22,778 bases of DNA, taken from positions 1-22,778 of IMG/VR virus record IMGVR_UViG_3300025122_000176; one strand, written 5' to 3'. The notes below the pieces were generated by a model, which saw only the letters and a list, made by a program, of their open reading frames with translations, ran no database searches and was not told where the DNA came from. Positions within the stretch are counted from its first letter, which is position 1. Each line of letters begins with the position of its first letter. The DNA comes from a virus. The position numbers and the translations under genes are program-made. Shown here piece after piece: positions 2,710-19,000 of this stretch.

Positions 2710-3607
2710 TATTATCAACTCCTATTGGGTTCCATTCTTTATATGAAAGGATACATTTTGCGGGTTTGCAAACCGTATTGCCACTGCTGGTGTATTCACA
2801 AAAACCTTTCCAACTATCAATACCATGATACCAATCAACTTCTAATACCACAGCTTCCTCTACTTTAGCAGATCCAAAAACTTTGTCAAGAGAAAAGAAC
2901 CTCGCGGACCACTTTTTATGTAAAGGCAATCTCTCCGTTGGAATCTCGCCATCGCGATGTTGCCCTGGCACCTTGTCACCTGTGCCTGACCGAATTATCT
3001 TCATGTACTCGGAGTAGCTATCCGCATCAAAAGTGAAGCCCAGGTATTTTCCTTCTCGCACCGTTTCATTTTTGTAACTTAGAAAAAATGCACGGCGGCT
3101 GGAAATTTCTTTGCGGTGTGAGCGGAGTACGGCTGGGTCGTAAACTCCGTATGGGAACGCAACATAATATCTGTCCGGGGCAACCCAAATACTTATTTGT
3201 GTCGAAACATCGAAGGCTGCTCGGGCACCATATAAAGCACTCCAGGCAAGGCAGTCCCTTTTCTTTCGATCATTTGGATGCACTGGGGTGTAATAGATTG
3301 TTATTGGCTTTTTCTCATCGGTGGGCTTAAGCCCATAGTTCCTTCCCAGGCAGACAGGATCAAAAATATAATCTCCTATGCGATGCCGAATCAAAGGCTG
3401 CATATCGTCATTACATACGATCCATATGGTTTCGCAACCTGCCCAAGCGCACTCCAATACCGCTCGTTCAACTGCCAAATAGTTCGGAGCAACGGGCATA
3501 AGAGAGTCGTGCCAGGGAAAATTGAAATCCAGTGGCTGTCCCGCGACGGGCACAATTCCAGCCAGGTGGAATGTCTTTTCACTAGTGAAACTTTTGCGCA
3601 AGGACAT
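2702..3607 (-). CDS. putative nucleotidyltransferase-like protein (GT-A fold suspected)
   Basis: A 301-aa protein read from the ATG at 3607. The N-terminal third (residues about 14-75) looks like a sugar-nucleotidyltransferase Rossmann half: a beta strand ending in PVAGQPLDF, then MPVAPNYLAVERAV, then a helix and strand ending in TIWIVCND. The classical GGxGTRL phosphate loop is absent, so the call is by pattern and activity is unproven. The C-terminal half shows no motif I know. A TTG at 3634 would extend the protein by 9 residues. I reject it because it lies inside the spacer of a good promoter whose predicted transcription start falls on the 3607 ATG. The gene overlaps the polymerase III gene by 8 nt, suggesting coupled translation. 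Its role could be modification of sugars or bases, or a purely binding function. Confidence 0.45.
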   Translation of the reverse strand: MSLRKSFTSEKTFHLAGIVPVAGQPLDFNFPWHDSLMPVAPNYLAVERAVLECAWAGCETIWIVCNDDMQPLIRHRIGDYIFDPVCLGRNYGLKPTDEKKPITIYYTPVHPNDRKKRDCLAWSALYGARAAFDVSTQISIWVAPDRYYVAFPYGVYDPAVLRSHRKEISSRRAFFLSYKNETVREGKYLGFTFDADSYSEYMKIIRSGTGDKVPGQHRDGEIPTERLPLHKKWSARFFSLDKVFGSAKVEEAVVLEVDWYHGIDSWKGFCEYTSSGNTVCKPAKCILSYKEWNPIGVDNNE

Positions 3608-3613
3608 AAGAAT

Positions 3614-3642
3614 ATAATAACAAACTACTTGCAAAAAGTCAA
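3614..3642 (-). promoter_or_regulatory. sigma70-type promoter for the 3607-1 unit, predicted leaderless
   Basis: The minus strand reads TTGACT (3642-3637), 17 bp, TATTAT (3619-3614). The next six bases bring the predicted transcription start to the A of the ATG at 3607, so the message would have almost no 5' leader. I see no Shine-Dalgarno sequence before that ATG, which fits. The region upstream of the -35 is A/T-rich. Confidence 0.65.
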
Positions 3643-3684: not shown

Positions 3685-4593
3685 TCATTTTCGGGCGAGA
3701 CCGCCAAGCATTTTATAACATTGGTTTGCTTTGGATGTATGCTCTAGAATAACTTCTTCTATCTTTCTGCTGTCAAAAATTATATTATCTGTGTCGAAAT
3801 ATTTATTTTGTTTTATCGGGAGAACCTCCCGATGGGCAGGCTTAATCCGCACCGCATAATATTTATATTTGTCTGGATTTTTTTGGTCGCGACCATTACG
3901 TGCGCCGCGCAACCCAAGTGACTTCATCATCTGCAAAACTTTGAATCTAACTGCAACGTCAGAATAATCAATGTCTGACAATTGTGATCGCGATAATCGA
4001 GAAACTACCACCAAATCTTTATAGCTGTGATTCCGTGCTGCGAATCGCTCGGAGGCATAAAAATATATTTCTTGTGCCAAGCAACTTTCATCCCCATACA
4101 AATAATCATACTCATGACAGCAGCCAGTCTTTACATCAAACCAATCCAGAACTTTAAAATGTTGCGGCTCTAAATTTTCTTCTGGTACGATGCCCTGGAT
4201 GTTGTCGTCATCAAAAATTCTTACGGTCTGGTAACCGTATTCAACAGCGGCATTTCCCGAGGTGATGACTTTGATTGTATTAGTCTCAGAATCGATTCTT
4301 AAAGCATGAGCCTTGTCTGAAAATGGTAATTTGCCCGCAATAGAAAGAGTAAATAATAACCTATGCCAAAGATCTTGCTTAGGGTGCCCAACGATCTTGT
4401 CGGCACAGTTGGTTCGCATAGTATAAACAACTGGGTCTATCATAAATAAACCCAAGTCAGACGTCGGCTCAAAAAAATCGAACGGGAATGGAGCGAACTC
4501 TGGCTTGTTGTTCACAAGCACGGCATCATTCAAATACGCATATGCTAGGGCAGCAAGGCTATGCCCGACTACGATCTCATCACACTGCCTCAT
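3685..4593 (-). CDS. hypothetical phage protein, 302 aa
   Basis: I do not recognise this protein. It begins with a short hydrophobic strand-turn-helix (IVVGHSLAALAYAYL, residues 7-21) followed by a second strand, AVLVNN. This resembles the start of a nucleotide-binding Rossmann fold but lacks a clear GxGxxG. The C-terminal third is basic and Lys/Tyr-rich (KNPDKYKYYAVRIK) and could contact nucleic acid. No signal peptide or membrane segment is seen. The ATG at 4593 overlaps the end of the GroES-like gene by 14 nt with only a weak GGTAGAAG ahead of it, so translation is probably coupled. It is the last gene of the unit started by the promoter near 5160. Coding status is secure from length and codon pattern; function is unknown. 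Confidence 0.8.
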   Translation of the reverse strand: MRQCDEIVVGHSLAALAYAYLNDAVLVNNKPEFAPFPFDFFEPTSDLGLFMIDPVVYTMRTNCADKIVGHPKQDLWHRLLFTLSIAGKLPFSDKAHALRIDSETNTIKVITSGNAAVEYGYQTVRIFDDDNIQGIVPEENLEPQHFKVLDWFDVKTGCCHEYDYLYGDESCLAQEIYFYASERFAARNHSYKDLVVVSRLSRSQLSDIDYSDVAVRFKVLQMMKSLGLRGARNGRDQKNPDKYKYYAVRIKPAHREVLPIKQNKYFDTDNIIFDSRKIEEVILEHTSKANQCYKMLGGLARK

Positions 4594-5183: not shown

Positions 5184-7628
5184 TTATCCACACTTTGCAT
5201 AGCCACATTGGCTGCATGTGGCGCAACCGTCTTGATAGTTCAGCCCTTTCTCATCGCCGCATTCCGGACATGCTTTATCTCCAACTGGTTCGCCGTTCTG
5301 AATATAATTTTTAAGAATTCTCGCGACGCACCTTGCAAAGCTGAACATGTCACTATCTTTATCTTTCTGCAATTGCTCTACCAAGAGGCGAGGCTTTGCG
5401 CCGTGCCTCAAAGCCAGTGAGATCATCCGAGTAAACGCAGATTCGTTTGGATTATCAAACACTTGCACTACATCTCGTACTACGGTTGTGTCGTCGTCCA
5501 CGCCGACAGTTAAATCGTATCTATTGGCTCTTGTCTTGAAACGATGTTTGGTTAAGCGCCCAGCTATGTGTCTTTTTGGAATCTCAATTAAATTTGACAG
5601 CCCTCCTAAAACCTCATACGGTTTTCCGTGGAGGAGCCCAACCAAAATAGTCCACTTTTCACCTTTAATTGTTGTGTGATGTACGTCACAATCAACAACC
5701 TCTGGACGATGGGGCGCACCGTTTTGCGGGAATATTCCCCCCTTCTCCTCGTCCTGATTGGATACCAAAACTCCGCTTCGGCTGCCATCAACATAAATCG
5801 TGATGCCCTTCAGCCCTTCGCGCCAACCCCTCAAATATAGATCTCCAACAACCTTGGGATCGGTACCTTTCGGAAGATTAATTGTCGAACTAATCGCGTG
5901 GTCAATATTGCGTTGAATGATTTCTTGAATAGTGACACGCTGAGCCCAATCAATCTCATTACTCTGAACAAAAAAATCAGGCAACTCAAGCTCATCAGCC
6001 CAGCCCCCATGGGAGTTGCACCACTCTTGAACGTTGTGGTGGAATACTTTGTACTCAACCCAGCGATCTCCCAGGTCATCTACGAAGTCCGGTTCGACAC
6101 CTTGCTCATTGTGATTTAACTTGCGCCGTCGAGTATATGAATTTCTAAAAACTGGCTCTAATCCCGAGCTTGTCTGAGATAAAATTGATACGCTGCCAGT
6201 TGGAGCATTCGTCAAAATGGATATGTTTCTGCGTCCGTGCGCGGACAGGGCTTTGCGGATCCGGAGCGGAAGCCGCTTGATGAATGCATTATTTTTTTCA
6301 GTTTCCCAATCAAAAATTTCAAAAGCTCCGCGCTCTTGTGCCAGAGCGACGCTCTCTTCGTACGCCTTGTCTCGCAACATCGTATAAATCTTTTCAATGA
6401 CGGCAGTGCTTGAATCAGAATCATACCGAAGGCGCATACAAGCCAGCGCGTCAGCCAAGCCGTGAGTGCCCAAGCCGGTGCGGCGACCAAGCAAGCAAGC
6501 TTTTCGCAGCTTGGTCCACAAAGCCTTTTCGTCTTTTGTGTCAGCTATTTTAATTATTCTTGTCAGTTGCTCAGACTCTAGTTCCACAAGATCATCGGAC
6601 AGCCTCATTGCCATGGAGGCAATCTTGCCGAACTCTTCATAATCGAAGTAAGCTTTTTCAGTGAATGGGTTTTTTATAAAGTTCTTTAGATTAATAGAAA
6701 TTAGTCGGCAACTATCGTGTGCCGATAACGGAATCTCTGCACATGGATTTGTTGAAATCGTCTCGAAGCCGTCTTCTATATAGCAGTCAGCCGGGAGATT
6801 CCTTTTAATATTATCCCACATTAACAACCCTGGTTCGGCAGTCTTTGTGGCGCTGTCCACAATAGTTCTCCAAAGCTCGCGAGCCTTGATAGTTTTAGTA
6901 AAACCAACCTTTTGATCCGGGGCTGCATCGACCGGATAGCGCAGCAAAAAATCAGCATCAGATTCCACTGCTTGCATAAAATCATCACTCAACTTAATAG
7001 AGACATTCGCTCCCGTTACCTTCGTTAAATCATGTTTCATCGTCGCGAATTGTTCAATGTCTGGGTGCCGAACATCCATCGTAATCATCAAAGCACCACG
7101 ACGACCATTTTGTCCGACCATACGACAAACATAGGAATAAAAGTCTGCGAACGACCACGCGCCTGTGGTAGTGCCAGCCGAATTATTAACGGGTGTGTTC
7201 TCTGGGCGAAGCTGGGAGATATCCAACCCGACACCACAGCGACGTTTAAAAAGGTTAGCCAAGTTCTTGCCTGTTTCTATAATAGACGACATGCTGTCTT
7301 CCGGGCTGGCGACAACGACACAATTAGACAGCGATGCGTGCACGTGCTTGTTGCCACAGCCAAACATCACCGAGCCTTGCGGAACGATATATTTGAAACC
7401 GTCGAAGGAGCTACGGATATCCTCATACGATAACTGACGGTCGCCGCCAAACTTCTTCTCAATCCTTGCGAACTCTTTAGCAAGGCGGTCGTGCATCTGG
7501 TCTGGGCTCTTCTCAAGAACTTCGCCATCCTTATTTTTAAGCGCGTATTTTGTTATAAATACGTTGGCAGCCAATTCATCTCCGCCAAAATATTTTAAAG
7601 TTGCATTTCGTATGATCTTTGATGTCAC
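5184..7628 (-). CDS. nrdJ: adenosylcobalamin-dependent (class II) ribonucleotide reductase
   Basis: An 814-aa single-chain reductase that makes deoxyribonucleotides for phage DNA synthesis. The catalytic set is visible: N294, C296 and E298 in NPCAEIP (thiyl radical Cys and its partners), with the redox pair C103 (SNCVVV) and C307 (DSCRLISINL). The later NAPTGSVSILSQTSSG stretch is the family phosphate-binding segment. After about residue 640 comes the extra C-terminal domain of B12-dependent enzymes. The protein ends in a zinc ribbon, CPECGDEKG then CATCSQCGYAKCG, which supplies the terminal redox cysteines. No beta subunit or activase gene is seen, as expected for class II. The start is GTG at 7628 with AGGGG six bases upstream, 12 nt after the helicase stop. 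It is the last gene of the exonuclease-helicase unit. Confidence 0.95.
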   Translation of the reverse strand: MTSKIIRNATLKYFGGDELAANVFITKYALKNKDGEVLEKSPDQMHDRLAKEFARIEKKFGGDRQLSYEDIRSSFDGFKYIVPQGSVMFGCGNKHVHASLSNCVVVASPEDSMSSIIETGKNLANLFKRRCGVGLDISQLRPENTPVNNSAGTTTGAWSFADFYSYVCRMVGQNGRRGALMITMDVRHPDIEQFATMKHDLTKVTGANVSIKLSDDFMQAVESDADFLLRYPVDAAPDQKVGFTKTIKARELWRTIVDSATKTAEPGLLMWDNIKRNLPADCYIEDGFETISTNPCAEIPLSAHDSCRLISINLKNFIKNPFTEKAYFDYEEFGKIASMAMRLSDDLVELESEQLTRIIKIADTKDEKALWTKLRKACLLGRRTGLGTHGLADALACMRLRYDSDSSTAVIEKIYTMLRDKAYEESVALAQERGAFEIFDWETEKNNAFIKRLPLRIRKALSAHGRRNISILTNAPTGSVSILSQTSSGLEPVFRNSYTRRRKLNHNEQGVEPDFVDDLGDRWVEYKVFHHNVQEWCNSHGGWADELELPDFFVQSNEIDWAQRVTIQEIIQRNIDHAISSTINLPKGTDPKVVGDLYLRGWREGLKGITIYVDGSRSGVLVSNQDEEKGGIFPQNGAPHRPEVVDCDVHHTTIKGEKWTILVGLLHGKPYEVLGGLSNLIEIPKRHIAGRLTKHRFKTRANRYDLTVGVDDDTTVVRDVVQVFDNPNESAFTRMISLALRHGAKPRLLVEQLQKDKDSDMFSFARCVARILKNYIQNGEPVGDKACPECGDEKGLNYQDGCATCSQCGYAKCG

Positions 7629-7640
7629 TGTCCACCCCTT

Positions 7641-9008
7641 CTATTTTTTTCTAAACTCTTTGTATTTTTCTCGCAGTTGTTTCCCCTGCTCAACGGCTGT
7701 ATGAGCGTGCACACTTTCGATGGTCTGACCATTAGGCGGCAAGATTTTTATTTTAACCCTAGAGGGGTCCATAAATATAGGGAAGATCAAACCATCCGGT
7801 CCATTCCTATTTTTTGCAATAAAAACTCTACCCCCGTTTGTATTTTTATCTTCAATGGTTCTAGAAAAAGAAAAAATAAAATCTGCTACAAAGCATTTAT
7901 TGAATGCTTCTGAAATAGATTCCATCGTAATAACTTCTGCGTTTAATCCCGACCTGTTTGTTTGTGAAGCAGTATAGCAAGGGCACTTACACTCTTGCGC
8001 TATGCCTCTGAGGTCTTCATAAATAGTCTCCAGTTCATGTCTCTTTTCTTTTCTTATAACATTTGGTCGCAATAAATCTGCATAGTCAACAATAATCAAA
8101 TCAGGCTTAATGTCGCGCTGATGTAACCTTTCCAGATGATTACGAATAACATTAGGAGATGCTGTTTTGGTCGGGTACTCCTTGATAATTAATTGCCCTT
8201 CCAGTTCTTTTACCGTTTCATAGATACCTTCTTTGCAACTGAAAAGCTGAGAAATTGGGATCCCTGTCATGCAACTATCATAACGACTGGCAATCACCGT
8301 AGAACCTAATTCCAACGTGTAATGAATTACCGTCTTCCCTTGCTTCAAGGCTTCTGTGCCGAGGTGCACCAGAACCATTGACTTGCCTGCGCCCGTTGGC
8401 GCAATCACAACGCCGAGTTCTCCAGAACCGAGCCCTCCTTTGTTGTGGTCATCAATGATTTGCCAGCCACTGCTCACTGGGTTGCGTGCCTTAATTGTAA
8501 AGCGTTCTTCGAAGTCTGCTTTATAATCATATCCAAAATCGGTGCTAGCTCCAAGCTTAAGCGCGTCATTAATGACCGAACTGATTTCATCAAACGAGGA
8601 AGTTTCCAGCAAGCCCACCGATTGGATCATGGCTTCTTTTAATTTTTGCTTGCGGCAAAAGTCCAGCGCGGTTTCCTTGATATATTCTTCGCCGCCAATT
8701 TCTATCTCAGATTTATATATTCTTGCAAAGAAATCACGTGTTTGTTTTTGTATGGAAGCGTTTTCATCTTCTAGCTCTGCGCGAAATACAGTCAGCATGG
8801 CATCCTTCGACGGGTGAACACCATACTTTTTCTTGAACTCAAATATTTTCCGAGTGAAAACTTGAAGATACTTTAATTCAAAAAAATCAATTGCCAGGAC
8901 CTCTTGTAGCTGGTCAGCAAAGGCGCGTTGCTCCATAATAAGCTGAGCCAATCCCTCTTGGAAGGCTTTGCCAAATTTTGAAAAATCAGAATTCTCAGTT
9001 CGTGCCAT
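7641..9008 (-). CDS. DnaB-type replicative DNA helicase
   Basis: A 455-aa hexameric 5'-3' helicase of the RecA-fold DnaB family (T4 gp41 role). The N-terminal 160 residues are helical and would form the collar. The ATPase domain has Walker A APTGAGKS at 203-210, a catalytic Glu in HYTLELG (about 230-235), Walker B LIIVDYADLL (about 304-313), sensor-like YTASQTNRSG (about 345-354) and a late FIAKNRNGPDG arginine-finger region. I start it at the ATG at 9008 because GGAGG stands exactly 6 nt upstream; an earlier TTG at 9029 has no such site. It overlaps the exonuclease gene by 14 nt. No primase domain is present, so primase must lie elsewhere or come from the host. Confidence 0.93.
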   Translation of the reverse strand: MARTENSDFSKFGKAFQEGLAQLIMEQRAFADQLQEVLAIDFFELKYLQVFTRKIFEFKKKYGVHPSKDAMLTVFRAELEDENASIQKQTRDFFARIYKSEIEIGGEEYIKETALDFCRKQKLKEAMIQSVGLLETSSFDEISSVINDALKLGASTDFGYDYKADFEERFTIKARNPVSSGWQIIDDHNKGGLGSGELGVVIAPTGAGKSMVLVHLGTEALKQGKTVIHYTLELGSTVIASRYDSCMTGIPISQLFSCKEGIYETVKELEGQLIIKEYPTKTASPNVIRNHLERLHQRDIKPDLIIVDYADLLRPNVIRKEKRHELETIYEDLRGIAQECKCPCYTASQTNRSGLNAEVITMESISEAFNKCFVADFIFSFSRTIEDKNTNGGRVFIAKNRNGPDGLIFPIFMDPSRVKIKILPPNGQTIESVHAHTAVEQGKQLREKYKEFRKK

Positions 9009-9990
9009 CGGCAACCTCCGAGGCAACAATACGTTTCATTGTTTGAAACAAGCTTGACCAATCAAACGCCCCAAAGCCGTCCACCGTCATCATCTTTAAC
9101 ATCTCTGTTTTATTAAATTCCAAAGTTGTTTCCTCGACCGTATAGCGAATAATCTTTTTCGACTGGGGCGAAAGGCTGGGCAAATATAATTGCATTAGCC
9201 GATAGTTCTTCTCTATTATATCGCGACCAGCGAGAATGTTATGGTGTACTTTTAATTTTTTCTCGACTCTTTCGCAAAAATCAAAAAGCTCGTTAAAGGT
9301 ATAAGACTTCGCTTCCGCCAAGAAAGGAAATCTTTTTGAAATTGTCGCAAGTCCTGCTCCGCCTACGCCGGGGAGGTTATCGCTTTTGTCTCCGGCAATT
9401 GCTCGCGCCAAAGCGAAATTCAAAGGATGGATCCCGTGCTCTTCAGTGATCCTATGCTTATTCAAAGTAACCTTTTGAATGGGTCTATGCAATACAGTTT
9501 CATCGTCACACAATTGATAAAAATCTTTATCGCTTGATACAATAACTTTCTGCCACCCTCTCAAAGATGGCATACCAACCACATGTGCAATAACGTCGTC
9601 TGCTTCAATGGCTGGCAGCATTATCTGACAAACTGGCATGCAGTTTAAATATTCCACGAGGCGAGTCTGCTGCCAAACTTTATTTTTTAGCTCCTCATTC
9701 TCGGAAAGATTACGAATTTCTCTGTTGAGGCGAATGGGCTTGCGACCTTCTTTATAATTCTTATCCACAGCCTTCCGGCGTTGCGAACCGCCAGCGCCGT
9801 CCCAGGCGATTATTACCTGATCGGGCTTGGTTTCTCTGATTAACTTTTGGAGGATTTTCAAAAATCCTTTAGTGCCGCCGATTGGCTGACCGTTGGTGGA
9901 GAGGCTTGGATCTACGATGTATGCCCTAAAGTACATATTGAGGGCATCAATGATTAATATTCGGGGGGATGTCACAGTTCTATTATCCAA
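8995..9990 (-). CDS. 5'-3' exonuclease / flap endonuclease (RNase H type)
   Basis: A 331-aa structure-specific nuclease of the PIN/FEN superfamily, likely removing RNA primers and flaps. It has the metal-binding motifs in order: LIIDALNMYFRAY (D15), AWDGAGGSQRR followed by basic NYKEGRK, AIEADDVIAHV, VIVSSDKDFYQL, and the helix-hairpin-helix motif GDKSDNLPGVGG. It is a free-standing exonuclease, not fused to a polymerase, and the family A polymerase encoded upstream lacks any such domain, so the two may act together. The start is uncertain. TTG at 9990 gives the N-terminus read here; GTG at 9978 is the alternative. Neither has a good Shine-Dalgarno site. First gene of its unit. Confidence 0.93.
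   Translation of the reverse strand: MDNRTVTSPRILIIDALNMYFRAYIVDPSLSTNGQPIGGTKGFLKILQKLIRETKPDQVIIAWDGAGGSQRRKAVDKNYKEGRKPIRLNREIRNLSENEELKNKVWQQTRLVEYLNCMPVCQIMLPAIEADDVIAHVVGMPSLRGWQKVIVSSDKDFYQLCDDETVLHRPIQKVTLNKHRITEEHGIHPLNFALARAIAGDKSDNLPGVGGAGLATISKRFPFLAEAKSYTFNELFDFCERVEKKLKVHHNILAGRDIIEKNYRLMQLYLPSLSPQSKKIIRYTVEETTLEFNKTEMLKMMTVDGFGAFDWSSLFQTMKRIVASEVADGTN
9015..9019 (-). promoter_or_regulatory. ribosome binding site that fixes the helicase start
   Basis: A full GGAGG lies inside the end of the exonuclease gene, 6 nt before the ATG at 9008. It rules out the longer reading from the TTG at 9029. Confidence 0.85.
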
Positions 9991-10048: not shown

Positions 10049-10675
10049 TTAGCGATTGCGTCGTTTATGCTTGATAGGCTTATGACTCTTATAATTTTTA
10101 TTTTTAGAACGCTTTTGATAATAGTCCCGAGGGCGTACCTTCCGCTTCTTGAATTTTTGTGGCTTCTGGCGGCGGTGCTTGTGGCGGTGACCATATGGAT
10201 CATGAAGGGTCGTTCGCGGTTTGGCTCGATGATGACGATAGTGCATCCGGTGAGGGTGGTGAACGTACCCTTTATATCCTGGACTGTACTGGTACCAGTC
10301 ATAAGTATAATGGTGGCGATATGGCTTGAAATAGTATTGCGCTCGGTAGCCCATGCAAGCCCAATATTGCTGCCGGTGGGCTTGCCAGTGACGATGAACC
10401 ATCCGAATGATCTCGTCTGGCACGTACCCATAAAACAGCCAGGTATGCTTGCTTGAATCGAATTCAGCCACAAGGAAATCTGTACTATAATGCCCTTCTG
10501 TATAGCCAAAGTAAATCGTTGGTGCGGAGGCTTTGTGCCAAACAACATTATAACTATAGTGATAAATCGATTGCGGTGCCGGGTCACAAGGTTGCGCTTG
10601 ACTTACGCCGTTTCCAAAAACCAACAAAAACAAAAATGTTAGCGATGTTGTGGTAAAGAATAATTTATTTTTCAT
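10049..10675 (-). CDS. secreted, strongly basic His/Tyr/Lys/Arg-rich protein of unknown function
   Basis: A 208-aa protein with a textbook signal peptide: MKNK, a hydrophobic core with LTFLFLLVF, and a probable cleavage after VSQA near residue 27. The mature part begins with an ordered-looking region rich in Tyr, His and Trp (residues about 30-120). It ends in about 60 residues dominated by Lys, Arg and His (KFKKRKVRPRDYY, KHKRRNR). I do not recognise it. The ATG at 10675 lies 11 nt inside the end of recA and has GAGG 9 nt upstream, so it is coupled to recA; longer in-frame starts are rejected. Alternative frames are also open here because of the codon bias, but only this one has a start site and a signal peptide. 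Possible roles are binding to the envelope, a nucleic acid or a superinfecting phage; none is shown. Confidence 0.75.
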   Translation of the reverse strand: MKNKLFFTTTSLTFLFLLVFGNGVSQAQPCDPAPQSIYHYSYNVVWHKASAPTIYFGYTEGHYSTDFLVAEFDSSKHTWLFYGYVPDEIIRMVHRHWQAHRQQYWACMGYRAQYYFKPYRHHYTYDWYQYSPGYKGYVHHPHRMHYRHHRAKPRTTLHDPYGHRHKHRRQKPQKFKKRKVRPRDYYQKRSKNKNYKSHKPIKHKRRNR

Positions 10676-11798
10676 TTTCAGTTTCCTCGTCATCTCCATA
10701 AAAATCAGATGCTTCGCCCAAACGTTTATCAAATTTTAGGATGACCTCTTCATCCATAATCTGAAGCACTCTGGTGCGAAACTTTTCTTCTTTAAGCTTG
10801 CCCATCCAGTGCGCGGTTTGGAACTTATCCACCGAACCATCCTCGTGGACTAGCTGGAACCATGCGCCAGCGTTCTTCAAGTTGTCAGAACCTTTGATGG
10901 CATCAAGCCAACTCTCTTCATCCTGAACTCCGATCTCTCCGCCCCAAAGAATTTTGAAGGCACTTTGCCTTCCTTGAGTACCAAAGCGAGATTTCTGAAT
11001 CTTTGCTTTGACTTCAGAACCAATGCGGAAGCCCTTGTCGTCCATGACAAAGGCGTTCTTGGCTTTGCGACCAGTCAGCCAGATTCGAAGTGAATAGGCA
11101 TAATGCATTGCCTTCCCACCGGGGGTGAAATAAGGCGTCGTAAGAGCCTCGGCAACATTCATGGTAATGTTTGTCTTAAGCTGGTTGAGCACTAAGAACG
11201 TTGATTGGCTGTTCGCAATCGGCACGGTCAGCTTTGACATCCCCTTTGATAAAATCCTCGGCTTCACTGCCATAGACGACAGCGGGTTAAAATCACCCTC
11301 TATATCTGTTGTCGATGGCGTGAGAGCCAAAGAGTCCCAGATGAAAAGCATGCGGTTTTCGTTTGTCCCTAACAGATCCTCAATAGTTTCCAAAACAAAC
11401 TCAACTGATTGAGCCTGTACATACAGCACACGATCAATATCGCATCCACTGCGAGCCAAAAAATCGGGGTCAATCGCGGATTCAGAATCAAAATAAATTA
11501 CATCAATGCCCATCTTCTGAGCATTTGATGCGACTTGGGCGGCTAGAAATGATTTACCCGTGGATTCTAATCCCGCGATTTCAGTAATTTTTCCGACTGG
11601 AATTCCTGCCAAGTGCCCGCGGCAAATAATGGAGTCTAGCCAGCGTGAGCCTGTGGGGATCCAATCACAAACCTCTGTGGGGTTTTTTTCTGCTAGGTTG
11701 TGCGCGACATTAAGTCCCGCTTTCTTATTGATGAGGGCTCGCATGTCGGCAATACTTAATTTGCCGACTTTTGTTTTTCCCGATTTTGGTCTTGCCAT
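10665..11798 (-). CDS. RecA/UvsX-type recombinase
   Basis: A 377-aa strand-exchange ATPase. A basic N-terminus (MARPKSGKTK) leads to the RecA core. Walker A is GLESTGKS at 76-83 and Walker B is LFIWDSLAL with D155. A DNA-binding-loop-like region follows with PLSSMAVKPRILSKG. Later, VLNQLKTNI and YFTPGGKAMHYAYSLRIWL match the conserved NQ and PGG segments of RecA. The C-terminus is acidic, as in many RecA proteins. It probably serves phage recombination-dependent replication and repair together with the ssDNA-binding protein encoded just upstream. The ATG at 11798 is chosen because GGAGG lies 5 nt before it; a GTG-initiated extension to 11837 would read through that site. RecA and UvsX are hard to tell apart by eye. 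Confidence 0.93.
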   Translation of the reverse strand: MARPKSGKTKVGKLSIADMRALINKKAGLNVAHNLAEKNPTEVCDWIPTGSRWLDSIICRGHLAGIPVGKITEIAGLESTGKSFLAAQVASNAQKMGIDVIYFDSESAIDPDFLARSGCDIDRVLYVQAQSVEFVLETIEDLLGTNENRMLFIWDSLALTPSTTDIEGDFNPLSSMAVKPRILSKGMSKLTVPIANSQSTFLVLNQLKTNITMNVAEALTTPYFTPGGKAMHYAYSLRIWLTGRKAKNAFVMDDKGFRIGSEVKAKIQKSRFGTQGRQSAFKILWGGEIGVQDEESWLDAIKGSDNLKNAGAWFQLVHEDGSVDKFQTAHWMGKLKEEKFRTRVLQIMDEEVILKFDKRLGEASDFYGDDEETENEK

Positions 11799-11803
11799 TT
11801 CTT

Positions 11804-11808
11804 CCTCC
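11804..11808 (-). promoter_or_regulatory. ribosome binding site that fixes the recombinase start
   Basis: GGAGG is 5 nt before the ATG at 11798. It selects the shorter reading of the RecA-like gene. Confidence 0.85.
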
Positions 11809-11830
11809 GGTCGAGTGACACATTGATGGC

Positions 11831-11865
11831 GAGGCACCTGATAACCCTATGCCTCCCTGTGGGGA
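11831..11865 (-). promoter_or_regulatory. two small hairpins in the ssb-recA intergenic gap
   Basis: GAGGCA and TGCCTC (11831-11855) form a 6-bp stem with a 13-nt loop. Just upstream on the message, TCCC and GGGA (11854-11865) form a 4-bp stem with a 4-nt loop, sharing two bases with the first stem so that only one can form fully. No U-run follows, so this is not an intrinsic terminator. It could tune recA translation or be an RNA-processing point. Confidence 0.3.
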
Positions 11866-11871
11866 TTATTC

Positions 11872-12645
11872 CTAACTGCCGAGCAGTTCGTCAAAAGCAT
11901 CTGAAACGGAAGTTGCCTCGGAAGACTTACCACTGTCAGCAGACGAAGCATACTTTACAGTTTCGGTTGAGGCAGTTTCAGCATCTTCATCGGACAGAAG
12001 GAATTCATCGAGAAGTGCCTGAGTCTCCGCTGAAGTTTTGCGATCAAACAAATCCTCAAACTTCGGGATCCCTTCCAAAAGCTCTTTGCAGCGTTCTGGT
12101 GTGACATCTTCACAGAACTGCGTAGTGGAACGCTTTGGCGTGAGTTTGGTCAGCGGGAACTGACCTCCGGGGGGCTTGCCATACTTCATAACTAGGTCTG
12201 TGCCTGCGTCGGTGTCGGTAATGTCGCCATATTCTGGATTCAAAACCAAGTTGAGGAGGGTTTCGTACGCCATCTTGCCGTAACCCCAGACACGGACACC
12301 TTGTTCTTCCTCTCCGCGAACTAGAACGGGAGAGAAGAATCGTTGGCGAGCAAAAAGGGACTTTGCCATCTTCTTACTTCCATCATTGTCTTCGCGCCAA
12401 AGCTGACTAGCGAAATCGCAAACCGGGCAATCGTCTCCATAGTTTTTTTTCGGGCACAAGAAGCCCGATGCCTTGCCTACATTATAGTGAAACCAATAAT
12501 CTTTGAACGGATCCCCATCTGCGGTTGGGATGATCCGAATTGTTTGTTCGCCGTCTTGAGGCTTCCAAAACCCGCTGGATCTAGAACCGCCGCGGTTCTC
12601 AAGTGCATATTTTCTTTGTTGAATCTTTTTTATGTCAATAGCCAT
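11872..12645 (-). CDS. T4 gp32-like single-stranded DNA-binding protein
   Basis: A 257-aa protein with the three-part plan of T4 gp32. The N-terminal basic segment (IKKIQQRKYALENR) would give cooperative binding. The core has a zinc site formed by H53, C64, C73 and C76 (LCPKKNYGDDCPVC), with spacing close to the His-Cys-Cys-Cys site of gp32. The Ser/Asp/Glu-rich tail ends in SVSDAFDELLGS and would recruit replication partners. It coats ssDNA at the fork and in recombination; its place directly before recA suits that. An AGGAG lies 8 nt before the ATG at 12645, and a hairpin sits at the start of the message. First gene of its unit. Confidence 0.88.
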   Translation of the reverse strand: MAIDIKKIQQRKYALENRGGSRSSGFWKPQDGEQTIRIIPTADGDPFKDYWFHYNVGKASGFLCPKKNYGDDCPVCDFASQLWREDNDGSKKMAKSLFARQRFFSPVLVRGEEEQGVRVWGYGKMAYETLLNLVLNPEYGDITDTDAGTDLVMKYGKPPGGQFPLTKLTPKRSTTQFCEDVTPERCKELLEGIPKFEDLFDRKTSAETQALLDEFLLSDEDAETASTETVKYASSADSGKSSEATSVSDAFDELLGS

Positions 12646-12670
12646 TAATTTTTCTCCTAACTATTAAAGC

Positions 12671-12694
12671 AAACTTAGCTAATCTTCTAAGTTT
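12671..12694 (-). promoter_or_regulatory. hairpin at the 5' end of the ssb message
   Basis: AAACTTAG, an 8-nt loop and CTAAGTTT form a perfect 8-bp stem. It begins about 2 nt after the predicted transcription start near 12696 and ends 13 nt before the AGGAG site. In T4 the gp32 message is controlled by its own protein through a 5' RNA structure; a similar role or simple RNA stabilisation is inferred. Confidence 0.5.
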
Positions 12695-12702
12695 CTACCT
12701 AC

Positions 12703-12731
12703 ACTATAACACAGTGCCAACACCTTGTCAA
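12703..12731 (-). promoter_or_regulatory. sigma70-type promoter for the ssb-recA unit
   Basis: TTGACA (12731-12726), 17 bp, TATAGT (12708-12703). The A-tract upstream starts in the TAA stop of the tubulin-like gene. It would drive ssb, recA and the secreted protein. Confidence 0.75.
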
Positions 12732-12739
12732 GCATTTTT

Positions 12740-13573
12740 TTATTTTTGTATTGCTGAACTGCGATACGCTGCATAAATGTAGTCATCCGCATAGTTTGTT
12801 GAATATATTCCATAAGATACAACCGCCTGGTCGTGTCCTGCTTCTGATATTTGCATGTTAATTTTTTCAAGTAAGGTTACATCTGTTGCAAGTTTTTCTT
12901 CATTAATAGCATAATAATAACACTTCTCGCGAGGATAGTCAAGTGGAAAAAACATATTTTCTTCGCCGGTTTCGAAGTCCTTAATCCCGATTGTTAAAAT
13001 CCGGGAAGCTTCGTGGGGCGTTGCCAAGGTCCCATGGTCTGCGGCTGTTCGAGAGAATATCTCAATCATATGTAAAGTGGAAGCGATGGTTTGACGAATC
13101 GTAGAATAGTAAGTCTTTACCGTCATGTTTGGTAAGATTGTGCCAACCAGTTCGAGGTCCACGAAAATTATTTTTTCAAAGACAGCGGATCTGGCATACT
13201 CCTGCAAGACACCTCGCACCATCTGCTCATTAAGTTTCTCCCTCTCCGAAAGCATTTTAATATTTGTCTTGAGATATAAAATAGTAATGTTGCATTCCCT
13301 GATCTCCGATAATATTTTCAATGACGTTGCCGATACAGGTTCCGAGCCGTCTACAATAAATAAAACATCGTCAGCGACAGAGTTTAAAAACTTCTTGAGC
13401 GAAGGGCATTGCGCCTCATATTGCTCAGGATCGTTTTGAGGTTCAATATAAAATTTCTTACCATAAACTCGTTTGTCGCCCGTCAGGATATTATACACAG
13501 TATATTGCGGGTACTTCTTGAATTCTTTAGCGAGGGCGCATGCCGATTCACCCAAGCCAATAATGTTGCTCAT
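12740..13573 (-). CDS. putative FtsZ/tubulin-fold protein with degenerate GTP signature
   Basis: A 277-aa protein whose layout follows FtsZ. It has a first strand and glycine turn, IIGLGESACALAKEF (4-18), where FtsZ has its GxGGxG turn. Next comes strand LFIVDGSEPVSATS (71-84) in the place of the GGGTGTG signature, then a helix, strand ITILYLKTN, a long helix with LNEQMVRGVLQEYA, and strand KIIFVDLELV. The C-terminal sheet has RILTIGIKDF and ends with VVSYGIYSTNYADDYIYAAY. The GTP signature is not conserved, so it may bind nucleotide weakly or not at all. Phage tubulins such as PhuZ position DNA in the cell; nothing shows that here. The ATG at 13573 overlaps the polymerase stop as ATGA, with AAAGG 8 nt upstream. 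The call is by eye; otherwise it is an unknown phage protein. Confidence 0.45.
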   Translation of the reverse strand: MSNIIGLGESACALAKEFKKYPQYTVYNILTGDKRVYGKKFYIEPQNDPEQYEAQCPSLKKFLNSVADDVLFIVDGSEPVSATSLKILSEIRECNITILYLKTNIKMLSEREKLNEQMVRGVLQEYARSAVFEKIIFVDLELVGTILPNMTVKTYYSTIRQTIASTLHMIEIFSRTAADHGTLATPHEASRILTIGIKDFETGEENMFFPLDYPREKCYYYAINEEKLATDVTLLEKINMQISEAGHDQAVVSYGIYSTNYADDYIYAAYRSSAIQK

Positions 13574-14757
13574 CTGATATACCTTTTCATATTGCCATAG
13601 TCTTTACCCACTGAGACGTTTGTAAGATATCTTCCAAAATCGGTGTCGCTAAATACTGCAATAATATCGTTTAATAAATTAGTGTCCTCTTTTGCAAAAT
13701 CAATCACCATGGAGTCGTGGAGTAAAAAAGCGATGTCCGACTTCTTATCTTGTAATATTTTACCAACTTCTACTGCTCTCTTTAAGAACAAATCGCTCGT
13801 GGTGCTCTGAATAATATAATTTAATGCGTGATGGTCGTCCGCTGGAATCACCCTATCGAAGAAAGTTTTTACTTGGTTCTCCTCGAAGTATTTTTGGACC
13901 ACAGCTTCTCTATTATACGCACGGCTGGCTAGGCGATCTTTTGAACTGGGATTATAGAGCCACGCAAATATTCTCCGCTTTGCATCGTCTCTCGTTACCT
14001 GCCCCCTATAAACATTTTTGACGTTCCACTCGTGTAAATCTTCTTGTGGTTGTTCGCGACCCGACAACGCTAGGAGGGTGCGAAGCTCGGCGGCATTGAA
14101 GTCAAGCTCTACAAAATAATTATTTTTTGGTTTAATAATAGACCGGAAAGTCCGGTCCAACGTAAGAATTGGAAAACTAGACTTGGTTGTTGTCAAGCGA
14201 CCTGTTTTCGATTTAAATGGATCATAGTCTATACGGTGTCGGTTTTTAACAGCGAGTTTCTTATACAGTGATCGTGCACGGGGGCGGGAGATCATCTTTT
14301 GAAGAGGCGAGAAGTCAATCTCCAAATCGCGCTCTTTAATCGCTGCCAACATTTTTACCACAGACAGTAGAAAATCATAATTTTCTGGCTTCGGATAATT
14401 TTCAATAACGTGTTGGGTGATCTGATTGCGCAACTCACAATAATCCAATAAAAACTTTTCTGGTATCAGATCATAAAAACAATTTTGTTCTAAATCTACT
14501 TTTGCGGTCTGACATGCACTGAGATGGTGGCGAAGGTGTCCGTTGAGTGCCAACCACTCCTCTTTCTTGCTCAGAGGGCATACCTCGTGCATAGGTTTGC
14601 CTGCGCAGTACAAATTGGCATACAAAACTGGTAGGTCTAGGTGCGAAGAATATTTCCACGTGGCAGTTAAGCCCGCGGGAATCTGACCGGAAAGGAATGA
14701 GCCTTGCACATATACACCAGCGCACTCTTTTTTGGTGTCCAAGTTTTGAAAAATCAA
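13570..14757 (-). CDS. reduced family A DNA polymerase (palm/fingers only), motif C HDS
   Basis: A 395-aa protein with the polymerase A core but no 3'-5' or 5'-3' exonuclease domain; E. coli Pol I has 928 residues. A TGRLTT motif lies at 185-190. Motif A is VELDFNAAELR, with D219, the steric-gate Glu E224 and R226. Motif B has R256, K260 and F264 with the exact spacing of Pol I R754, K758 and F762. A conserved NYIIQSTTSD lies at 313-322. Motif C is LLHDSMVIDF, with D348 present but Ser349 where most enzymes have Glu. The start is TTG at 14757 with only AGG before it. The frame is open up to the TAG of the preceding gene, two codons earlier. It may be a gap-filling or translesion enzyme. Confidence 0.8.
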   Translation of the reverse strand: MIFQNLDTKKECAGVYVQGSFLSGQIPAGLTATWKYSSHLDLPVLYANLYCAGKPMHEVCPLSKKEEWLALNGHLRHHLSACQTAKVDLEQNCFYDLIPEKFLLDYCELRNQITQHVIENYPKPENYDFLLSVVKMLAAIKERDLEIDFSPLQKMISRPRARSLYKKLAVKNRHRIDYDPFKSKTGRLTTTKSSFPILTLDRTFRSIIKPKNNYFVELDFNAAELRTLLALSGREQPQEDLHEWNVKNVYRGQVTRDDAKRRIFAWLYNPSSKDRLASRAYNREAVVQKYFEENQVKTFFDRVIPADDHHALNYIIQSTTSDLFLKRAVEVGKILQDKKSDIAFLLHDSMVIDFAKEDTNLLNDIIAVFSDTDFGRYLTNVSVGKDYGNMKRYIR

Positions 14758-14763
14758 AATAGC

Positions 14764-16020
14764 CTACAGCTTCGGTGTTTCATCCGGCAGTACCTTTCCT
14801 GGTAAATGCGGCGTCGGAGTTTTCTTAATTGTTATATTAACATATTCCTTGGCAATGTCAAGTCCAAACTTCCTATAAACTTGAATTATTTTTTTAACTT
14901 CGCGATTAAAACGCCCCGAATCTTGTGGTGCGCCAAGTTCTCGTAGGCGAATAAAATAATATAATTCTAGCCAAAACTCATTTGGATAAAGGAGATAGGC
15001 TTCATCGGGATCGATGAATCCTCGGTTAACAAGCTTGGTCTTAGTTACAATGTTATCACCCTCTACACAGGCGGATACTTTATTATAAGAAGGATAAGAG
15101 CGGCAATATGTATTGTACGCACCAATAAAAAAGTCTTGAAGATTTTCAATATCGTATTGATATGAACGATAAAAATACTTATCAAATAGATTGGCGGCTG
15201 TCACACCATAATGCGCTCCATCTCTGCCTGCCATATATCCTTGCATGACTGAGTGATTAATATCTGCGACCAATCGCCAAGGGGCATTGGTGTCCACCAT
15301 AAACCCGTGGTTCTCTGCTGCTGATTTATAAAACATAAAATTTGGATCTGCGAGCCACCTAATTTTATCCTGGTCGGTGCCGTGTTCGCCATCACCTAAT
15401 TCAACCACGAGACCACTTCCAAAGTTTGCAAATGTGTTGGAAGAAATAAGCCCAGACAGGCTAATAAACGCGGCTCCATTATTAGTCACCATAAGCTCCA
15501 TAGTCGCTTTGATGAATGATGTCAAGTCATGAACTTTCTTTTCTCGACCATCTTGCTTAAACCAGTTGCCGACCAAACTGTCATATAAGCTAATCAAATA
15601 TTGATTATATGCTTGATGAACGCTGGTCCACCCTTTTATTGCTTCAGGGGCAATTATGTTAAAGATGCCGTCCGGAGATAATTTCTGCCCCAGCCGCGCT
15701 TGCATAAAATGTAACTGCAAATCCGAGAAAGCATCTACAACAAAATCTGCACCAAATACAATATCGCTCGCACCGGGACCAGTTCTTTTAAACTCTTTTA
15801 AATTCGTTTCTGATAAATAAATTATATTTCCAGTTGGGTCTAACTTCCCATGGAAGTTTCGATCATACCAAAAATCTATGGTTTGCTCTAAAAGCCAATC
15901 GGTCGCAATAATATGTTTCCAATAATTTCGTAAGTCGAAAATTGCCTGCGAATCCTTGCCGTTCTCTGCTTGCGCTAGAAAAAAATCAAAGTTTGCCTGA
16001 TTTGGATTTGGACTAGCCAT
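14764..16020 (-). CDS. hypothetical phage protein, 418 aa (possibly structural)
   Basis: I do not recognise this protein. It is soluble-looking, rich in Tyr, Phe and Trp, with a helical N-terminus (DLRNYWKHIIATDWLLEQ), a Gly/Ser-rich central part (SGLISSNTFANFGSGLVV) and a motif-like NAPWRLVADI near residue 245. The C-terminus is basic and Pro-rich (KKTPTPHLPGK). No signal peptide or membrane segment is visible. It follows the tail-hub gene by 13 nt, with an AGGAG that overlaps the hub stop codon 10 nt before the ATG at 16020. That position suggests a virion or tail role. Its TAG stop is followed, in the same frame, by GCT ATT and then the TTG of the family A polymerase. Its codons look more A/T-rich than those of the tail genes upstream. 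Confidence 0.8.
   Translation of the reverse strand: MASPNPNQANFDFFLAQAENGKDSQAIFDLRNYWKHIIATDWLLEQTIDFWYDRNFHGKLDPTGNIIYLSETNLKEFKRTGPGASDIVFGADFVVDAFSDLQLHFMQARLGQKLSPDGIFNIIAPEAIKGWTSVHQAYNQYLISLYDSLVGNWFKQDGREKKVHDLTSFIKATMELMVTNNGAAFISLSGLISSNTFANFGSGLVVELGDGEHGTDQDKIRWLADPNFMFYKSAAENHGFMVDTNAPWRLVADINHSVMQGYMAGRDGAHYGVTAANLFDKYFYRSYQYDIENLQDFFIGAYNTYCRSYPSYNKVSACVEGDNIVTKTKLVNRGFIDPDEAYLLYPNEFWLELYYFIRLRELGAPQDSGRFNREVKKIIQVYRKFGLDIAKEYVNITIKKTPTPHLPGKVLPDETPKL
14834..14861 (-). promoter_or_regulatory. possible internal promoter for the reduced polymerase gene
   Basis: TTGACA (14861-14856), 16 bp, TAATAT (14839-14834), inside the end of the 418-aa gene and about 75 nt before the TTG start. 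The -35 is exact, but the site is coding, its spacer is 16 rather than 17, and exact TTGACA also occurs elsewhere in coding sequence of this window. Confidence 0.3.
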
Positions 16021-16033
16021 ATTTGCTGTACTC

Positions 16034-19000
16034 CTAGTATTTCTTTATAATCTCGTTGACCTTTCTCTGGGTCGCGACTTTCTCAACTGCTTTTTCCGCT
16101 GCTTTTTGTGCTTTCTCGACCGGCTTGTTGCGTGTGTTGGGCGTTACCCCGGAAAATACCCCAGGTCGGCTGCCGAGCCATTCATTTCGTTTGTTGAAGA
16201 ATCTACCACCTGGCTGTGGGTACCCCTCTACCGTCTGCGTCCACCCATTTTCACTAATCGAGCCAACAAGCTTGGTGCAGCCAAAATATCCGCCGAATCC
16301 CATTGCAAGGGCTATCTGGTAATCCTGCGTCTTCCCGATACTGCCAATATCAATATAAAAATCTTTTCCAAGATCAAACAAATTATTGCCGAGCATCTTA
16401 ACAGTACACTTTTGGGGCACACTTACCTCGCCGCCTGCGGAGATGACGGCTGCGCCGCCTTTCCCGTGCGTGTTTTGGGTAGTGCTGAATTCTTCTTGGT
16501 CCATGCGCTCAAACGAAACTTCCATTGATGGTCCCTTATCATGGTTAAACCCGATATGGTAGCATCCGTTTTTGGCGTCCGTCTTATAGTCTCCTGTACG
16601 GTCATTTACACCATATACGTTGGTCGATATGGAAACATATTTGTGCTTCACCGGGAGATAGTGTCTTGGGTCTGGACCCAAGGAGCGCTTTGGGGGCGTG
16701 AAGGTTTTAGTATTAAGTCGCGATACGTTGCCAAGCGGGTCTGCGCCACCTTTAACGCCATCAACCTCGAAGCCCTCAAACTGAATCCCCCCTGCGCCAT
16801 CGCCCACTTTGTGCATGTCGGCAGACCAAAAGCAGCCTCCCATCACAGCGCCGTTGGGCGAACCGCCGAGGGCGGGCACAATCAAGTCCTTAACAATATC
16901 TGTGAGAAATCTCTGAAGCCCCATTGTTGTCTTCTGTGGTCCGATAACATTATGCAGCATCCACGCCTGGAAAAGCTTCAGACTAATTGGTATGTCTGCC
17001 AACGGGCACGAGTACAACGTCCCGCCTTGGTTGAAATCTTTATAGTCCATTGGACCCAGCAATATACGAGTGCGCTTGCCGTCCCGAACGACCTGATTTG
17101 CATAAGCTCGCTGAATCGCGGCTGATAGAATGTCGCCAAGATAAACATAATGCAGTTGAATGTACATACCTGTTGGGTCTATCGGTAGGTGCCCGGTGCC
17201 TGTGGTAATACCCTCGGCAATCTTCTTCTGCCTTTCTTGGCTAGCACCTGCTTTTTTGGCTGCTGCCAGAGCATCAAATTTGTTTTTGTATTCGGTTGCT
17301 TGACCCTTGCCTGTCTTCCCTTTCATCTTGTCCGACTCCACTTGGACATTCTGAGGGTTTGCCAAGATATTTGTGGCTCTCTTTTTTACCCGTGCTCTGA
17401 AGTCAGCCCACTCTTTTTTGCATTCCGCAGATGCAGTCTCGACATTCGCGCACTTCGGCGGGGTCTTCCAGGCAGAATCGCCGCCGTTGTTCTTCGTCGT
17501 AGAGACCTCAGACTCCATCCGCGAGACTTCTTTGACGGCTTTCATGGCAGCCTCATTAGCACCGACCATGGATCCGATGCCGGTCACGACCATCTTCTTC
17601 AGCAAGTTGGCAACAGGGACGCCTGCACCAGTGACGTCAAGCTTCTTCACCGCGTTGACTGCCGAAGATGGCTGTTCGACCACAAGTCCCAGTAACTCCT
17701 TCTTTACGTTCATTGTATAAATGGAGTTGTTCATAGCCAAATCACTCATAATCGCTGACCACTTTTTTAGACGGGGGTCGGCGGTCAGGGCTTGGTATTC
17801 TGCCTCGGCTTTGGCGTGGGCTTTCCCCGTTTTTGCCGAGTCCCAGGCGGCTTTTAGGGCGCTCCCCTTACCCCGGTCATCAACATCGACGCCAATTATG
17901 CCCGCCCGCGCGACCTCCGAAAGCGCGTTATTTTCCACCTCGAAATCCTTCGCCATCGCCTCGTGTTTGACGGCATTCAGATCAATCTTATCAACATCTC
18001 CTGCGATGCCCCATTTTTTGAAGTATGCCTCGGCTTTGTCATTCTGAGGTTGACCGCTCGCATCCGGGTTACTGACAATCTTTTTAATGTGTTTTATGTG
18101 TTTGACAAGGGCTGCTTTGGCTTCAGTCCGTTTTTTCTGTGCGGCTGCTGCCTCTTTAGAAGCTTTGGTGCCCTGGTACTGAGACGGTGGCGGTCCAAAA
18201 ACATCCATTCCAGATGCGTCGCCCTTCTGCGCCACCTCTACTGAGGCAAGGTAAGTGCATTCTAACTCCACTGACCCGTCTTCTCCCAGTGTTATCTTCG
18301 GAGTATCGCTCTGGTGGAGAAGGAGACTCGTCACCTGATTTTTGATTTGGTCAATCTGCTTTAAAGTAAAATGCAATGGCGCATTTTGCGGCAATGCCCA
18401 ACCATAATTGATACGAATGATAAACGCATCTGGATTGGCCACCTTTTCCCCCTTGATATTGAGGATCTTGAACGGAGGCTCCATGGCTAGATCCAAAGGA
18501 GAGGCGAACTTACCGCCAGATCCGCGTGTATCTAACGCTGCCAAAGATTCCGCGACAAACTTTAATTTTGCAACTCTGGTCCTTTTGACCTCTTTGCCCC
18601 CGGCACCACCTCCATCAGCTTCATAAGAAAATTCTTTCAAACCGCAAGATGCGCCGCGTGGCTGACTACCGTCCATTATGCGTTGGATGCTCTCAGTCGT
18701 AGTCCAATTCGCAAACAGCACTTGTTTTGCGGTACCGCTCGTTGCATTCTGTTTTTTGCCTTCGACAGCATTCTGCTTCGCAAGCTCCGGATTATCGTGG
18801 TTGACCAGATAAATATCGACATATGGCACCAACATTGCCATCTGGTGGGGGCTCATTTCCATGAAGGTTTCCAGACCGCTTTTTAGCGTTAACTTTTGTT
18901 GAAGCTCCTGCGGATCTCCGTCAAAGACAGTGAGCCCCTTATATGCTTTGGGTCGATTTTTTGGCGACGTGAAATAAGGCAGGTTCTCCATTAAAAAACA

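Follow-up and report, generated by a model that had tools for sequence, protein, structure and literature searches.

The closest described relatives of the gene reported here are the divPolA1 proteins, exonuclease-inactive, additional PolA proteins of 14 phages with genomes of 155–190 kb, in which a regular polymerase of family A, B or C is encoded as well (Yutin et al., 2024; PMC11348598). The same study reported divPolA2 in barbaviruses, which is likewise an extra, exonuclease-less PolA found beside a regular polymerase, and proposed it as a possible RNA polymerase. A third point of reference is the characterized DNA polymerase of phage Tt72, a family A enzyme of 703 residues with an active proofreading domain, a glutamate steric gate, the phenylalanine of motif B, and an Asp-Ser motif C in which serine occupies the position of E. 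coli E883 (PMC9324360). Tt72 mutants retained 76% of activity for S616A, 35% for E389A, and 4% for D384A and D615A (PMC9324360).

A Compact Family A Polymerase

The window analyzed is the entire IMG/VR record IMGVR_UViG_3300025122_000176, which is 22,778 bases long. Its minus strand holds, from 14757 to 13570, an open reading frame of 395 codons that begins with TTG; the plus strand of the same stretch is packed with stops. The product matched the Pfam profile DNA_pol_A (PF00476; E = 1.4e-10, 41.2 bits against a curated cut-off of 34.3) and the PHROG DNA polymerase profile phrog_17 (E = 3.1e-14), and on the strength of these two values the match is beyond chance. A sequence-only reading of the window had called this protein a 395-residue family A DNA polymerase lacking an exonuclease domain, and the analysis bears out both parts of the call, confirming a gene that is real, intact and widespread. 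The DNA_pol_A profile matched 72 of the 72 family members scanned, and the roughly 60 residues that precede the thumb helices match no exonuclease profile.

The same reading had proposed looking for a palm fold, and the AlphaFold2 model built on a 72-sequence alignment was confident (pLDDT 93.1, pTM 0.90), predicting a right hand of palm, fingers and thumb that matches Pol I structures. The top Foldseek matches in the PDB were the apicoplast polymerase, KlenTaq, Klenow, Bst, pol nu and pol theta, with no RNA polymerase among the 50 matches listed, and a BFVD structure search returned ordinary phage PolAs only, at 12–18% identity. In the model the first ~60 residues (1–60), a putative N-terminal remnant, have little regular structure, and are followed by three long helices (62–84, 100–120 and 127–141) that look thumb-like and span the putative thumb region at 62–141; palm and fingers come after. 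The chain has no room for an exonuclease domain of ~190 residues.

Alignment placed D219, E224, R226, R256, K260 and F264 at the positions of D705, E710, R712, R754, K758 and F762 of E. coli Pol I, as the sequence-only reading had them, and H347-D348-S349 at H881-D882-E883; the equivalences were checked on the actual sequences of E. coli Pol I, T7 DNA polymerase and T7 RNA polymerase. Motif A thus reads D219xxxxE224xR226 and motif B R256xxxK260xxxF264xxxY268. Pol I spacing, also claimed earlier, holds within each motif but not between them, where the distance from the Asp of motif A to the Arg of motif B is 37 residues against 49 in E. coli (12 shorter) and that from the Lys of motif B to the Asp of motif C is 88 against 124 (36 shorter). 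Because both stretches are shorter than in Pol I, the fingers are reduced as well, and the template-contacting R841 of Pol I is without an equivalent in the alignment. The protein shares with Pol I and its Klenow fragment the palm, fingers and thumb fold, motifs A and B, the His-Asp of motif C and the steric gate, but differs from Pol I in lacking both the 3'-5' and the 5'-3' exonuclease domains, in its shorter fingers, and in having serine in place of E883.

Relationship to divPolA1

In Flavobacterium phage immuto_3-5A the first gene encodes a family A polymerase of 441 residues, and it is followed by two small genes and then by genes for a single-stranded DNA-binding protein (SSB), a recombinase, a 5'-3' exonuclease, DnaB and ribonucleotide reductase, which is the order seen in the window. 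Microcystis phage Mel-JY01 and the 484-kb uncultured jumbo phage LR756508 have the same order, which can be written as polymerase – x – gp32-like SSB – UvsX – 5' nuclease – DnaB. Profile comparison with hhalign joined the window branch to the Immuto branch (99.1% probability, E = 3.9e-19) and to the Mel-JY01 branch (96.7% probability). A maximum likelihood tree placed the window protein with those of Immuto, Mel-JY01 and the jumbo phage in one group (support 100/99), apart from six other PolAs, and divided that group into two sister branches with 100/98–99 on each side; some branches of the tree are long, so that the split is more secure than its depth.

The active sites divide in the same way. 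Seven diagnostic residues tell the two apart: E R K F Y H S in the window branch and, without exception, H Y K F Y Y A in the Immuto/Mel-JY01/jumbo branch. The equivalents of E710, R754, K758, F762, Y766 and H881, together with both catalytic aspartates, are invariant in 82 distinct sequences of the window branch, while all 124–125 sequences of the sister branch carry His for E710, Tyr for R754, Tyr for H881 and Ala for E883. Since these residues differ, we place the window protein in a sister branch and not inside the Immuto branch, and, as judged from sequence, it is a catalytically conservative sister of the Immuto divPolA1. It has lost the exonuclease domain and is accompanied by a DNA polymerase III alpha (Pol III alpha) as the second, regular polymerase. 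With divPolA1 it further shares homologous palm, fingers and, putatively, thumb, the gene order with SSB, recombinase, 5' nuclease and DnaB, genomes of 150–190 kb, a regular polymerase that in some divPolA1 phages is also of family C, and the lack of an active 3'-5' exonuclease. The Immuto protein differs in its length of 441 residues and in a longer, inactivated exonuclease remnant. From a MAFFT alignment the ~60-residue N-terminus of the window protein is likely homologous to that remnant, although the hhalign match stops short of it. divPolA2 is more distinct, having no homologous thumb and variable neighborhoods, in contrast to the thumb-like helices and fixed neighborhood of the window protein.

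These sequences add to divPolA1 a large and mainly uncultivated branch in which the polymerase retains its catalytic residues, and some of the 14 published divPolA1 genomes (LR796xxx, MK892xxx) may fall within it. With residues kept in one branch and replaced in the other, at one locus, the two form a natural experiment that bears on the purpose of a second phage polymerase and on which residues it needs. In the sister branch, where motif C is Y-D-A, the gate is His and Tyr takes the place of R754, active-site function cannot be assumed, and its substrate and activity make a better question than those of the window branch. Annotation of this locus can mislead: in Mel-JY01 the 5'-3' exonuclease at 17342–18382 is annotated as DNA polymerase I, and the actual polymerase (11947–13173) is called hypothetical.

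Replication Genes Around the Polymerase

Downstream of the polymerase, and also on the minus strand, the window encodes a T4 gp32-like SSB (11872–12645; Pfam gp32, 5.9e-14; phrog_1192), found at 87 of the polymerase loci, a UvsX/RecA-like recombinase (10665–11837; Pfam RecA, 2e-35; phrog_97, UvsX), a 5'-3' exonuclease of the Pol I N-domain/FEN type (8995–9990; Pfam 5_3_exonuc_N, 2.7e-28; phrog_107), a DnaB-like replicative helicase (7641–9029; Pfam DnaB_C; phrog_19) and the large subunit of ribonucleotide reductase (5184–7628; Pfam Ribonuc_red_lgC, 8.5e-89; phrog_84). The free exonuclease mentioned in the sequence-only reading is indeed a separate nuclease, but it is this downstream 5'-3' enzyme and not a detached 3'-5' proofreading domain; among the genes here it comes closest to a detached Pol I 5' nuclease. 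Upstream neighbors of the polymerase include a baseplate wedge-like protein. Directly upstream, at 14764–16020 (minus strand), is a gene for a 418-residue protein that occurs in 88 of the loci examined and has no Pfam or PHROG match.

At the edge of the window, which cuts it, lies the gene for the Pol III alpha, a DnaE-like protein with a PHP domain (1–2718, minus strand; Pfam; phrog_405, 6e-205), so that its reported presence in the same genome holds. Two proteins encoded on the minus strand between this gene and a set of small genes (2702–3634 and 3685–4593) matched nothing in Pfam or PHROG; the first, with 64% identity in one related record, is well conserved where present. Pol III alpha was found in nine of 11 related records, the two without it being fragments; full open frames of 1142–1169 residues occur in relatives, and it is about 13–21 kb from the short polymerase where both were mapped. 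A single family A polymerase gene was found per related record, and family B polymerases are absent from the six longest. A DnaG-type primase, missed by a Toprim search, was found with the PHROG primase profile in five of these six, the sixth being a 93-kb fragment. Searches of the phage records for ATP- and NAD-dependent DNA ligases gave no match, and for this reason Okazaki maturation would need a ligase that comes from the host or escaped detection. The T4-type sliding clamp profile PF02916 had no match in the phages, and none in the controls either.

An FtsZ-Fold Protein Coupled to the Polymerase

Between the polymerase and the SSB is a gene for a 277-residue protein (12740–13573, minus strand) whose ATG overlaps the polymerase stop codon as ATGA, and which by this overlap is predicted to be translationally coupled to it. 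The protein has no Pfam or PHROG match. Its AlphaFold2 model (pLDDT 94.1) found FtsZ/TubZ first with Foldseek, and as the sole kind among the matches listed, at E values of about 1e-13, TM-scores of 0.62–0.72 and 8–13% identity. Sequence- or profile-level similarity to E. coli FtsZ was sought and not found, and the apparent FtsZ kinship is seen in the predicted fold alone. The family keeps a T1-like glycine loop (GLGxAGCNIA), and the GTPase motifs GGGTGTG and NxDxxD are absent from a 41-sequence alignment.

The association of the two genes is strict. The FtsZ-fold gene was present in 93 of 95 polymerase loci, and a reverse search that started from the FtsZ-fold protein found the polymerase upstream in each of the 57 loci that have 1 kb or more of upstream sequence and the SSB downstream in all 69 loci with room for it; tblastn did not find the gene in the Immuto, Mel-JY01 and jumbo phage stretches. 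This coupling was unexpected and makes the FtsZ-fold protein a testable partner. It is a speculative and on balance improbable idea that the polymerase and this protein, which lacks the GTPase motifs, form one functional unit, in which the partner could be, for example, a clamp, an anchor or a filament that organizes phage replication. If true, it would put the FtsZ/tubulin fold to a new use and add a new kind of accessory factor for polymerases.

Proposed Role

The explanation we favor begins with an intact family, for which the analysis shows the fold, the catalytic residues, the synteny, and the presence of Pol III alpha and primase in the same genomes. The polymerase would be a complete, template-directed family A enzyme reduced to thumb, palm and fingers, in which the ~60-residue remnant replaces the exonuclease domain, and which would incorporate dNTPs and not rNTPs, without proofreading. 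It would act within the run of polymerase, FtsZ-fold protein, gp32-like SSB, UvsX, 5' nuclease, DnaB and ribonucleotide reductase. Pol III alpha is likely the replicase of these 150–190 kb phages, and the short polymerase and the separate 5' nuclease would together amount to a split Pol I. We regard this explanation as a whole, a dNTP-using, proofreading-free sister of divPolA1 that serves as a split Pol I beside Pol III alpha, as probable. The gene context raises the more particular prospect that the short polymerase may fill gaps behind the 5' nuclease as RNA primers are removed, and/or may extend the strand-invasion and recombination intermediates made by UvsX, a role to which we give an even chance. 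With shortened fingers and no exonuclease domain, its activity could be low without a partner.

A dedicated repair or translesion enzyme that works outside the replication machinery, in the manner of pol nu, pol theta, or Pol I in repair, is the most serious alternative, if an unlikely one. Such an enzyme could well lack proofreading and have shortened fingers, its structural matches would include pol nu and pol theta as they do here, and replication could be left to the separate replicase encoded in the same genome. Against it are the place of the gene, which is fixed within the core replication run in all branches, and the absence of added insertion loops of the pol theta kind.

The sister branch raises a different thought, since by losing several of its catalytic residues it shows that the gene at this locus can be retained for a purpose other than ordinary synthesis. 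The window polymerase might similarly be retained chiefly as a part of the replisome with a structural or regulatory task, its catalysis weak or dispensable, and the constant coupling of the window branch to the FtsZ-fold protein would suit such a part. We nevertheless consider this quite unlikely, because the residues replaced in the sister branch, E883 excepted, are invariant in the window branch, a pattern that would be difficult to account for if catalysis were not under selection.

It is more doubtful still that the short polymerase serves as the main replicase, with some other purpose for Pol III alpha. The idea draws on position, as the short polymerase, and not Pol III alpha, sits between the tail genes and the SSB-recombinase-helicase run, a placement that Yutin et al. 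pointed out for divPolA1 (PMC11348598). Against it, the short polymerase has no proofreading domain, no processivity factor was detected, and Pol III alpha keeps a full frame of ~1150 residues in every record long enough to show it.

DNA or RNA as the Product

The sequence-only reading took HDS in motif C, which also occurs in T7 RNA polymerase, as a sign that the choice of substrate was open. Its description of the motif stands for the window protein, where serine follows H347-D348 in place of the glutamate usual in family A, but the serine is not fixed: it is the usual third residue in the window branch, N, L, F, Y and A also occur, and glutamate was never seen. That glutamate is not truly a defining feature of family A, given that Tt72 is active with serine. 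The meaning attached to HDS is not supported. At the positions of the invariant E224 and F264, T7 RNA polymerase has Gly542 at the gate and Tyr639, and HDS is also present in an ordinary phage DNA polymerase, the 567-residue protein of Bajarodcaudo virus 5. Because E224 and F264 are invariant, the serine varies, and Tt72 with its serine is a DNA polymerase, use of dNTPs is favored, and from its residues the window enzyme is very probably active with them. Tt72 polymerase is itself longer and proofreading, and is not a near relative as far as tested.

An RNA polymerase or primer-making enzyme is accordingly a far-fetched reading. The resemblance to T7 RNA polymerase extends from HDS to the Arg and Lys of motif B, and divPolA2 offers a precedent in having been proposed as a possible RNA polymerase, but the T7 enzyme has 883 residues and a promoter-binding N-terminal domain, for which the window protein has no counterpart, and a DnaG-type primase is encoded elsewhere in the genomes. 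An RNA polymerase is rejected on the gate residues together with the Tt72 data, which removes HDS as a false lead.

Distribution of the Family

A first scan of IMG/VR found 17 loci with 46–69% identity across nearly the full length, and a profile scan found relatives encoded in at least 578 IMG/VR stretches. Nearly all relatives examined have 390–401 residues, the exceptions being two in which the match starts late. With half the residues of Pol I, the frame could have been what is left of a normal-length polymerase gene after breakage, a check that the sequence-only reading had suggested. This is ruled out by hundreds of same-length homologs with a conserved N-terminus, by a window open frame of 397 codons that extends only two beyond the gene, and by the lack of any longer upstream frame common to the relatives.

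Related records reach 147–190 kb, and the carriers are large, mostly uncultivated viruses of bacteria. Among the cultivated or annotated phages of INPHARED, tblastn at a threshold of 1e-3 found no near relative of the window protein, and a second family member used as the query gave distant matches only, so that no host can be named from this source. A polymerase 47% identical to the window protein, together with FtsZ-fold, SSB and UvsX genes, was found in CP070664.1 (2244052–2261236), a metagenome-assembled chromosome labelled candidate division WOR-3, where the locus is possibly an integrated or co-assembled phage and gives a weak hint to a host.
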